A stretch of DNA of 64,000 nt, taken from contig NZ_QUWK01000002.1 of NCBI RefSeq assembly GCF_003429665.1, positions 200,990 through 264,989 on the forward strand. The letters are read 5' to 3'. Shown one piece after another: positions 23,852 to 27,019 of the stretch (positions are counted from its first letter, which is position 1; each line of letters starts with the position of its first letter). The position numbers were made by a program, and so were the translations under genes. The notes beneath the pieces are model-generated. The model ran no database searches and was not told the origin of the DNA. It saw only the letters and a program-made list of their open reading frames with translations. The DNA is from Sphaerochaeta halotolerans (GTDB taxonomy: Bacteria; Spirochaetota; Spirochaetia; Sphaerochaetales; Sphaerochaetaceae).

Positions 23852-24283
23852 TCAATCAATGGAAAAGTCATGCCGTTCCAGAGCTTGTTTTATTGTAGTG
23901 CATTTACAGAAATCAGTTTTGAAGTCTGTATCTGTTTTGCTTGAAAGCAACTCTCTGATTTTCGATATATTGCAGGTACGGATAAGCTCATCCTCAAGGT
24001 TATTAACTTGGGGAAGGCAATATACATGGCCTATCATTGATTGGTTGGATAGGAATTTCATATTCTTTTTTAGAATTGATGCATTCAGTGTATCTGTGTC
24101 AAATAGAAGTACGACATTGGTTTTATGTTTCAGTGTCATTAGTCGGGCACGAGTAAATTCTTCTTCAACAGCATTGAATACCTTGATTTTTCCTGGGACT
24201 ATGCATTGCATGTCGGTTTTAAGTGCTCTCAATAATACTGCATCTGTTTCACCTTCAACGTAATATTGGAATAGTTGTGGCAT
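23852..24283 (-). CDS. Small Toprim-like protein, partner of the upstream ATPase (candidate defence effector)
   Basis: 143 residues. The N-terminal VEGETD (E10) and VVLLFDTDT (D62, D64) match the Glu and Asp-x-Asp positions of Toprim nuclease/primase domains. NNLEDELIR and DFKTDFCK are also visible. It begins 15 nt after the ATPase stop with its own AGGAG, so the two are co-transcribed. ATPase plus small Toprim protein recalls OLD-type, PARIS and AbiL-like anti-phage systems, where the ATPase senses infection and the Toprim protein cuts nucleic acid. The assignment is by motif and context only. The gene is more AT-rich than its neighbours, consistent with horizontal acquisition. Confidence 0.7.
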   Translation of the reverse strand: MPQLFQYYVEGETDAVLLRALKTDMQCIVPGKIKVFNAVEEEFTRARLMTLKHKTNVVLLFDTDTLNASILKKNMKFLSNQSMIGHVYCLPQVNNLEDELIRTCNISKIRELLSSKTDTDFKTDFCKCTTIKQALERHDFSID

Positions 24284-24298
24284 CGTCTAGTATACTCC

Positions 24299-25408
24299 TT
24301 ACAGCCGGTCAATATCGTCTACATTCGGAGCAACCGAGAAGATGTCATTTTCAACTGCTCTACGTAAAGAATCCGTATTGCGTTTCAGATACTGGTCTGC
24401 ATAAACACATGAGATTCTATTTTCATGTCCAAAAATCTCCTTTTTTAGAAATACGTACGAGTGAATCGGAAGTGACATGTCTAATATATCTGCATTATGC
24501 GTAGTAAAAAATAACTGCTCATTTGCGCCCAATTTTTCTATCATCTTGGAGAGAATTGCCTTCTCCATATCGCTGTGAATATAGGAAAACTTCTCATCAC
24601 AGTAATAGAATCCGTATAAGCTAGAAATAATTGAGGAGAGCATAACAGCGATATCTACACCAGAGCGGGTACCGCTTGAGAGTATTTCACTATTAAGTAT
24701 TTCATTGTTCTTCATGATAAGGTCATGGTTATTTAGCCTAATAATATATGAGTTCTCGATATCTTGTGATTCACGAACCCCCTGTATAGATGGATCTAGA
24801 GCTCTTAGGACAGTCTCCAGTACGATTCGAAAACTTTTTTTCCCTACTGGAGTAAGATTTTTAAAGGAGTCTTTTGAAAATGGGTAGGAAAAGTACCAAC
24901 CAAAGGTATCAATTAGATCGAGTGCTTCAATATACGTTGAATTTGGGGTGTTTATGGTTCTTAGTTTTGCTACGCAACGTTCGTAGCTGTCGGTCTTTAA
25001 AATGGAAGTAGAACTTATCGTCAAGGAAATATCTTCTTCTCTATATCCAGTAGCAGTGGGTGGTGATATTTGGGCTACAATACGGTACATAGTCTTTATC
25101 GATGAATGAGTTATAAAATCCATTGAAAACGAAGATGGTTCAGAAGTATCATCGATGCAGTTGGCAATTGGGTCAATACTTTTTTTTGTGATAAAATTAA
25201 ATATCGCTATGAGCGCATTTCCTAGCGTTGTCTTCCCTGTTGCATTTGCTCCCATTAACACAATCAACTTCTTGTATCGGAAGTTTGGTCTATCTTCCAG
25301 ATATTCATCAGTAATAGTTGAGTTAGAGATTTTTTTTGGATACGTTAAAGACAGATGGAAGTTATTAAAAGAAAAGAAATTATCAAGTTTTATTTCTAAT
25401 AGTATCAT
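24299..25408 (-). CDS. AAA/ABC-type ATPase of a two-gene candidate defence system
   Basis: 369 residues of the AAA15/SMC-like ATPase class. Walker A GANATGKT at 53-60, ABC-type signature SSGT at 244-247, Walker B ending in DE at 271-272 (FYYCDEKFSYIHS) and switch His H304 in FFTTHNAD. This is the overall plan of RloA, AriA, AbiLi and OLD-like proteins. ATG 25408 has SD AGGAG just upstream. A perfect 12-bp inverted repeat sits directly ahead of the SD. The gene is AT-rich and lies near a tRNA gene. The specific system is not identified; AbiL-like is the best guess. Confidence 0.8.
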   Translation of the reverse strand: MILLEIKLDNFFSFNNFHLSLTYPKKISNSTITDEYLEDRPNFRYKKLIVLMGANATGKTTLGNALIAIFNFITKKSIDPIANCIDDTSEPSSFSMDFITHSSIKTMYRIVAQISPPTATGYREEDISLTISSTSILKTDSYERCVAKLRTINTPNSTYIEALDLIDTFGWYFSYPFSKDSFKNLTPVGKKSFRIVLETVLRALDPSIQGVRESQDIENSYIIRLNNHDLIMKNNEILNSEILSSGTRSGVDIAVMLSSIISSLYGFYYCDEKFSYIHSDMEKAILSKMIEKLGANEQLFFTTHNADILDMSLPIHSYVFLKKEIFGHENRISCVYADQYLKRNTDSLRRAVENDIFSVAPNVDDIDRL

Positions 25409-25422
25409 ATAAACACAACTCC

Positions 25423-25449
25423 TATAAATTCGTAAAATACGAATTTATA
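25423..25449. promoter_or_regulatory. 12-bp perfect inverted repeat before the ATPase gene
   Basis: TATAAATTCGTA (25423-25434), AAA spacer, TACGAATTTATA (25438-25449). It is immediately upstream of the ATPase SD on the minus strand. It could be an operator for autoregulation or a hairpin in the 5' leader. Confidence 0.6.
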
Positions 25450-25514
25450 ATAACTCAAGAGTTTGTGATATGCAAGAGTTGGTTCTCCTTTTTAAGAATT
25501 AGCTACCTCTGCCA

Positions 25515-25587
25515 AGTGAAGAGAGGGGCCCCCGACCGCTTGCTAGCAGAGCTCAGATGCCCAGCCGGTTAGCTCCCTCTCTTCACT
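25515..25587. other. Large structured inverted repeat, possible ncRNA or mobile-element scar
   Basis: A perfect 13-bp pair AGTGAAGAGAGGG (25515-25527) / CCCTCTCTTCACT (25575-25587) encloses a GC-rich 47-nt interior. The interior has a second helix GACCG (25534-25538) / CGGTT (25566-25570) and a TGCTAGCA palindrome. Its GC content contrasts with the AT-rich surroundings. No known RNA family was recognised. Confidence 0.5.
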
Positions 25588-25966
25588 AACAAGTATGCTC
25601 ATAATACTGTGGGGAGACAACCAGTCCTATATGAAGGTTATGATATAAGTAATTACAATATATAATTATAAATAGATTAAGCAATGATGAGAAAACACAT
25701 TTCTTCACAGACGGGAGTATGTCCTTTCTGTGCAATCATGGTACTGATGTACCAACAATGCAAATCCTTCTGGGGTTCGGTGTATTCGATTGGTAAGGTA
25801 ATGCAAGCTTCTTCTACACTCAATAAGGTGAGGGACGAGGTGAAGCAGTTGTTGATTGCCCTTGGAGCTTTCTCGTTCCTGCCTCAACAGGATACATGCG
25901 ATTTTTCTCATTCATTTTGCTTTTTCCTGCAACCTTCAGTATCATACAGGCAGGAGGAACTTCTTT
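25588..25966. other. Intergenic stretch without a supportable gene
   Basis: AT-rich at 25600-25680. A 96-codon plus-strand open frame from 25684 has no SD, no recognisable motif and runs through the promoter of the next gene, so it is not called. The right end holds the promoter at 25917-25945. Confidence 0.5.
25917..25945 (+). promoter_or_regulatory. Promoter of the 116-residue protein and FNR-like gene
   Basis: TTGCTT (25917-25922), 17-bp spacer, TATCAT (25940-25945). The start point near 25952 leaves a short leader containing the AGGAGG SD of the gene at 25967. Confidence 0.5.
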
Positions 25967-26317
25967 ATGGATGATCTACTGGCGAGATATACAAGCTTGG
26001 CTCCTGAAGCAAGTGAAGCCCAGATTGAGAAGACTGCCCAGGACTTGGAACGGCGAAATTACATGCCACCCTTGATTCTGGATGTGGAAGATTTTTATCA
26101 TCTGACGAAAGAGCGTATGCTGAGGGAGTATCATCGGGTTATGTCCCTTCCTTCAGAAAGTTCAGAGCTAAAGGCAGTGGTTGGGATTGGCGATCCTGAA
26201 GAAGTCAAAAAGAAACACCTGACCGTATTGCTTAATCAATATGAATTGCTGAGGGGACTGCGCTTAGGCGATGGAGATGCCTGGGCTACAGTCAACGAGC
26301 TGTACGAGGACGACTAA
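25967..26317 (+). CDS. Hypothetical protein, co-transcribed with the FNR-like regulator
   Basis: 116-residue acidic, largely helical protein of no family recognised here. ATG 25967 (MDDLLARY) follows a strong AGGAGG. The frame is open further upstream to 25856, but that part has no SD and low-quality residues. It ends 3 nt before the TTG start of the regulator, so the two are almost certainly one operon. No cysteine motifs or membrane segments. A regulatory or accessory role beside the FNR-like protein is only a guess. Confidence 0.7.
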   Translation: MDDLLARYTSLAPEASEAQIEKTAQDLERRNYMPPLILDVEDFYHLTKERMLREYHRVMSLPSESSELKAVVGIGDPEEVKKKHLTVLLNQYELLRGLRLGDGDAWATVNELYEDD

Positions 26318-26320
26318 GCC

Positions 26321-27019
26321 TTGGATATACATCAATGCAGCATCTGTGCAAACGGAAGTGAACCTTGTTTGCAGCATGTGCCTCTATTTCAGAATCTTGA
26401 GAGCGACCAGATCCAGGAAGTGCAACGCTTGATTAGGCAGATTGAGGTTGCCCCTGGTGCTGTATTGTTTCGTGAAGGGGATAATGCAGACAGTCTCTAT
26501 CTCATCAGGAAGGGATCACTTAAATTGGTCCGTTACGGGAGTGATGGATCAGAGTATATTCTCGACACGCTCTTTCCTGGGGATTTCTATGGAGGTGACC
26601 AGCTCTTCTTATCCAGTGTTGCCAGAGAGACCGGTGTAGCAACCGAACCCCTGGGTATCTGCATGATCAAGGCAAAGGAGCTTCAGCATTTGATCCTTCA
26701 AAAACCTGCGATTGCCTTGAAAACCATGACCTACTTGAATGCCAAGCTCGACCAGTACCGCCTGCAAGTTGAGATGCTTTCCACCTCTGACGTACAGAAA
26801 CGTATCTGCATGTACCTGATTGAGCGATATCGAAAAACCGGGAGTACCTCATTGCATCTTACCCAGGATGACATTGGGAGTGCACTGCATCTCACCAAGG
26901 AGACCGTGAACAGAAAGCTCTCCTCTTTGAAAGAGGAAGGAATCCTTCGTGTGGAAGGGAAGGGGAAGCTCCTCATTCTTGATATGGCCAAATTGGAAGC
27001 AATCTCCTTTGAAAGTTGA
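26321..27019 (+). CDS. Crp/Fnr family regulator with FNR-like cysteine pattern
   Basis: 232 residues. A cyclic-nucleotide-binding-type sensor domain (about 23-145) is followed by a helix-turn-helix (LTQDDIGSALHLTKETVNRKL, about 181-201). Cysteines C6, C9, C16 and C114 closely mirror the C20, C23, C29 and C122 ligands of the E. coli FNR [4Fe-4S] cluster, so an oxygen- or NO-sensing cluster is likely. TTG start at 26321, with GAGG upstream. RIC and a flavodiiron protein follow, fitting control of O2/NO detoxification. HcpR-like function is an alternative. Confidence 0.88.
   Translation: MDIHQCSICANGSEPCLQHVPLFQNLESDQIQEVQRLIRQIEVAPGAVLFREGDNADSLYLIRKGSLKLVRYGSDGSEYILDTLFPGDFYGGDQLFLSSVARETGVATEPLGICMIKAKELQHLILQKPAIALKTMTYLNAKLDQYRLQVEMLSTSDVQKRICMYLIERYRKTGSTSLHLTQDDIGSALHLTKETVNRKLSSLKEEGILRVEGKGKLLILDMAKLEAISFES

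Follow-up and report, generated by a model that had tools for sequence, protein, structure and literature searches.

We propose that a 73-nt nested inverted repeat in Sphaerochaeta halotolerans forms the 5'-terminal, Y-shaped stem-loop of a lineage-specific small RNA or leader that would be read from the minus strand. This is our best reading, with a probability of about 0.5, and the transcript itself is predicted from sequence. The hairpin lies within the window (the whole 64,000-nt stretch of DNA that was analysed), beside AbiL-like defence genes. It is not tied to those genes, and it is a lineage-specific, single-site element of one Sphaerochaeta clade. We will refer to these features of the window:

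25515-25587, minus strand: 73-nt nested inverted repeat, the proposed 5'-terminal stem-loop of a minus-strand RNA (outer stem of 12-13 bp, three-way junction, two inner hairpins)
25592-25597, minus strand: promoter-like -10 element, CATACT, kept in 7 of 7 species
25615-25620, minus strand: promoter-like -35 element, TTGTCT, 17 nt from the -10 element, kept in 7 of 7 species
25665-25693, minus strand: a second, outer promoter candidate, TTCTCA-N17-TATAAT, in 6 of 7 species (cut off by an insertion in the relative G019)
25721-25790, plus strand: remnant of the upstream region of an ABC-F gene, from alignment to five relatives; the gene and uORF have been lost, along with a portion of the promoter

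Form and distribution of the hairpin

The arms of the repeat, AGTGAAGAGAGGG (25515-25527) and CCCTCTCTTCACT (25575-25587), are exact reverse complements of 13 nt each, and the region folds more stably than shuffled sequences, which bears out the perfect outer stem of the original prediction. Positions 25505-25597 have a predicted energy of -35.1 kcal/mol on the plus strand (z = -3.1) and -45.6 kcal/mol on the minus strand (z = -3.6); for each strand, 1 of 200 shuffles was equally good. The nested inner helix that had also been described was right in that both strands have nested helices, but these are not the same ones on the two strands, and the conserved unit exceeds the 73-nt repeat: it covers about 25515-25625, with two invariant blocks on the right-hand side of the hairpin. 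The consensus fold of the minus strand has an outer 12-bp stem, a short CCG/CGG helix, a three-way junction, and two inner hairpins. The minus strand has the lower energy in all seven species with the hairpin, and the consensus energies are -30.8 (minus) versus -20.0 (plus) kcal/mol. Pairing counts favour neither strand (97.3% of cells pair on the plus strand and 97.5% on the minus strand).

Covariation does not establish this structure. In the outer arms, 10 of 12 pairs are invariant, and the covariation that the original prediction had named as a test is almost absent: a single pair changed on both sides, which shuffled data equalled. Searching the window with Rfam at the gathering scores returned two tRNAs only; at E ≤ 5 the best match was a microRNA model, with 16.9 bits against a cut-off of 83, and the relative G001 gave nothing convincing. 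There is no run of T directly after the stem on either strand, as an intrinsic terminator would have. The terminal core sites of integron attC sites have the motifs GTTRRRY and RYYYAAC; the repeat ends in neither of them.

A DNA search of 60 genomes gave seven strong matches (E ≤ 3.4e-22), all within the 26 Sphaerochaeta genomes (counting the window's own), and the rest were short fragments. Our models R1 and R3, run over 139 genomes of the order, each found the same seven, with the other matches being weak. So homologues do exist, as the original prediction had allowed, in 7 of 26 Sphaerochaeta genomes. In all seven carriers the hairpin is at the orthologous site downstream of tRNA-Phe, although in G011 AbiL and a large insertion lie between the tRNA and the hairpin. 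It is single-copy in its own genome. A look for copies elsewhere in the genome, which had been recommended, found none beyond that one; together with the orthologous site in 7 of 7 species, this argues against the end of a mobile element, which had been one suggestion. No copies were found on plasmids or phages.

A pattern match in a viral contig covers only model positions 19-63 (15.6 bits), without the outer stem, and we consider it to be due to chance. A pattern scan of GTDB genomes gave 12 matches, of which two were Sphaerochaeta(ceae) records; the other ten were from unrelated taxa and were also attributed to chance. With R3 over 392 genomes drawn from the phylum there were three further weak matches. 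Two stems in G058 (27.9 bits, E = 6e-4) have in common with the hairpin the outer-stem pattern alone and were set aside as structural look-alikes, and the one in G300 was taken as another. (G058 has long GC-rich palindromes at two sites, L177 and L179, which are nearly identical and REP-like.) G005 has a 31-nt stem (E = 0.064) with 17 nt of arm in common and the inner part absent.

Conservation and a putative minus-strand promoter

The hairpin of the window and that of any one of the six relatives have the same base at 63-65 of 73 positions (86-89%). Across seven neighbouring genes, fourfold degenerate sites are 38-78% identical between the window and relatives, depending on the gene and pair; pooled between the window and G001, they are identical at 352 of 584 sites (about 60%), and the hairpin is more conserved than these (Fisher p = 1.3e-06). 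This difference suggests that the hairpin is under purifying selection. The signal comes from the window's lineage alone, because when the six relatives are compared with each other, conservation of the hairpin does not exceed that of fourfold sites. Past the hairpin, the next 43 columns of the alignment are 79-84% identical, and the 90 columns after those are 63-67% identical, except in G019. As the stem-loop is conserved, it is probably the functional part.

To the right of the hairpin, all seven carriers keep two blocks that flank a variable stretch. On the minus strand these blocks hold TTGTCT and CATACT, with a 17-nt spacer in all seven (TTGTCT-N17-CATACT). If transcription starts 7 nt past the -10 element, then the start is 2-3 nt or less from the first base of the stem. 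A promoter so conserved and so placed arose in 183 of 20000 shuffles of the columns upstream of the hairpin, in a test that considered one strand and whose thresholds were chosen after seeing the data. Also, the element matches the consensus at 8 of 12 positions, and a scan yields several equally good chance sites in every species. The outer candidate, TTCTCA-N17-TATAAT, matches the consensus better. On the plus strand, no promoter is common to all seven species within 120 nt upstream of the hairpin. We also considered a plus-strand leader peptide, in the frames beginning at ATGCTCATAAT and ATGCTCAGCCGG; we rejected it because these have a deletion or early stops in some species.

Under our proposal, the promoter at 25620-25592 would start a minus-strand RNA at about 25585, and the first 75 nt or so of this RNA would form a three-way junction closed by a very stable stem. 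The stem-loop might shield the 5' end, or it might bind a protein or another RNA. Where no gene lies beyond the stem-loop, the product would be a small RNA. In the species that lack AbiL, it would cross some 0.1 kb of poorly conserved sequence toward the terminator of tRNA-Phe; we found no convincing minus-strand terminator after the hairpin. For the window and G011, that transcript would continue into the AbiL-like genes and so be a long leader to them, which seems to be a coincidence of position. Thus the small RNA of the original prediction remains as our best reading, on the minus strand, while its link to the defence module is not supported by the distribution of the two across species.

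AbiL-like and ABC-F genes beside the hairpin

The ATPase next to the hairpin matches the PADLOC model for AbiLi (E = 5.4e-30), which is what makes the module resemble an AbiL system. The partner ORF (23852-24283) has no match in Pfam and a weak PADLOC match (E2, 6.2e-05), and it is a candidate AbiLii. A retron-like system had also been raised, but the five ORFs at 23852-27019 include no reverse transcriptase according to Pfam.

The suggestion that the hairpin regulates the AbiL-like operon as a leader RNA is very unlikely. A minus-strand transcript would enter these genes, which begin 177 nt downstream. However, AbiLi homologues (E ≤ 1e-20) are present in just two of the seven hairpin carriers (the window and G011) and absent from the other five. 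Conversely, AbiL is found in 7 of the 60 genomes, and five of those lack the hairpin: the best score of the hairpin model in these five genomes is 12.2 bits, versus 123.3 for the window. With AbiL missing from five carriers and the hairpin missing from five AbiL loci, the hairpin and the module are not linked. For instance, G018 has no hairpin, and its AbiL is about 0.7 kb away from the same tRNA-Phe. Furthermore, the stretch from the hairpin to the start of AbiL contains a promoter-like site of the gene's own and a palindrome. The 27-nt palindrome, TATAAATTCGTA-AAA-TACGAATTTATA (25423-25449), separates this promoter-like site from the start of the ATPase, and G011 has a similar one; it may be an operator for autoregulation. 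We also considered that the hairpin was transferred together with AbiL. The AbiL-like genes of the window and G011 are somewhat closer than core genes are (99/135 and 34/52 fourfold sites), but the window's hairpin is no nearer to that of G011 than to those of other carriers, and we rejected this idea.

In the six other carriers, the hairpin is upstream of a plus-strand ABC-F gene (in G019, past an insertion of about 36 kb). Where it is complete, the product has 515-523 amino acids; its best NCBIfam match, NF000355, scores 247.6 bits and does not reach the cut-off of 380. The gene has a promoter-like sequence of its own, TTGCTA-N17-TATAAA (found by inspection). All 11 of the Sphaerochaeta genomes with the gene have a three-codon uORF, Met-Lys-Asn (MKN), before it (such as at L022:4395-4406, with matching sites in the 10 other genomes, at three or more different loci). 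In the window's genome there is no ABC-F match at E ≤ 1e-60: across 25721-25970, the gene, the uORF, and part of the promoter were lost, and all six other carriers kept them. The MKN uORF is likely an antibiotic-sensing attenuator outside of the Gram-positives. Tripeptide uORFs are described for vmlR (MIN) and cplR (MRI), and vmlR2 is another case (PMC9226507, PMC10201436); of these two papers, with which we compared it, PMC10201436 mentions neither MKN nor "Spirochaet".

Our first reading was that the hairpin is part of the ABC-F leader. We dropped it since the gene has its own promoter and uORF and since the hairpin is kept without the gene. The broader version, in which the hairpin is a plus-strand cis-element within a long regulatory region of ABC-F and was orphaned in the window's genome, is unlikely as well. 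It would account for the gene following in every other carrier and for the conservation of the whole interval across the five intact loci. However, the likeness to the ABC-F attenuators above is in the uORF-bearing leader of the relatives' gene, while the hairpin is outside of this leader, about 200 nt upstream of its predicted promoter. Also, 5 of the 11 genomes with the gene and the uORF lack the hairpin, and the hairpin is conserved both in the window's lineage, which lacks the gene, and in G019, where the two are separated. The inner part of the hairpin has no particular complementarity to the ABC-F leader of G001 (186 of 200 shuffles were equally good).

Insertion sequences and DNA-level sites

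The only additional full-length matches of R1 at E ≤ 1 in the 139 genomes are leaders of ISNCY-family insertion sequences. These elements have many copies in the genus, and their leader hairpin is just before the first reading frame. (The elements have an ORF with an N-terminal zinc-ribbon-like region and a DDE ORF, in different frames. Their leader hairpin has a 5' arm that resembles a Shine-Dalgarno sequence, as at L118, L119, and L125-L144 in the window's own genome and relatives; six leader matches, one of them weak, are in the window's own genome.) So the hairpin could be a relic or a domesticated piece of an ISNCY 5' leader with a similar hairpin, which we consider improbable. A model built from nine leaders ranks the hairpin first in the 64 kb (20.1 bits, E = 0.033), but this is in part circular, as the hairpin had been used to find some of those leaders. 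With a profile of 18 leaders there was no significant match (E = 8.8 for the window and 0.76 for G001). Two leaders match the window's hairpin better than all of 1000 shuffles do, while for six of the nine, 39 to 885 of 1000 shuffles were equally good. Also, the stem arms are simple runs of purines or pyrimidines. The likeness to ISNCY leaders is therefore unproven, and this region as an IS leader, which was our second reading, was dropped on account of the circular model and the insignificant profile. A variant is an analogy to IS10 RNA-OUT, an antisense RNA that silences transposase mRNA in trans. By this analogy, the hairpin would be a solo antisense-type RNA gene, derived from an ISNCY leader and kept by the host at tRNA-Phe, that silences the transposase mRNAs of dispersed copies in trans. 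RNA-OUT is likewise a short and stable hairpin RNA that is read against leader-like sequence, but there is no transposase beside our hairpin, and its relation to the IS is unproven; this idea is quite speculative and we give it very little weight.

Alternatively, the repeat might act as DNA instead of RNA, such as a protein-binding operator, a cruciform, or a recombination target. The outer arms are conserved as sequence, given their invariant pairs, and the locus gathers insertions: AbiL is beside the hairpin in the window and in G011, G019 has a transposable prophage, and G011 also has an element with the same ends as that prophage. But the insertions in G019 and G011 have 5-bp duplications (ATTAC and AAAAT) that are outside of the hairpin, which indicates transposition rather than recombination at the hairpin. 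Furthermore, there is no second copy in the genome, and conservation extends to the inner part, for which a two-arm operator would have no need. A DNA-level site is thus rather improbable. The insertion in G019 is a Mu-like prophage of about 36 kb, flanked by the ATTAC duplication, between the hairpin and ABC-F (G019:C1, about 3072900-3108900; L046, L053, L054). We also considered that it was Tn7-like, but it has a Mu-type transposase match, a TniB/AAA protein, DUF3164, and a tail protein. The G011 element with the same end sequences (L071, L026) is near the same tRNA-Phe, at another position. Two insertions so close together suggest a preferred site.

If the hairpin is indeed the start of a minus-strand RNA, then it would resemble the leader of ompA, a bacterial mRNA leader with a 5'-terminal stem-loop: both would have a stable stem-loop at the 5' end behind a sigma-70-type promoter. 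Unlike such RNAs, ours is predicted only from sequence, has a three-way junction, lacks an Rfam match, and is confined to one clade. The library that we searched holds hardly any literature on small RNAs in Sphaerochaeta, with five articles that contain both terms, none of which has either term in its title or abstract. More broadly, proximity to a defence module does not mean that a hairpin belongs to it, and in this case the two are told apart by their distribution across species. And a single-copy structured element that has outlasted the loss of the adjacent resistance-type gene makes a clean candidate for an RNA gene in its own right.
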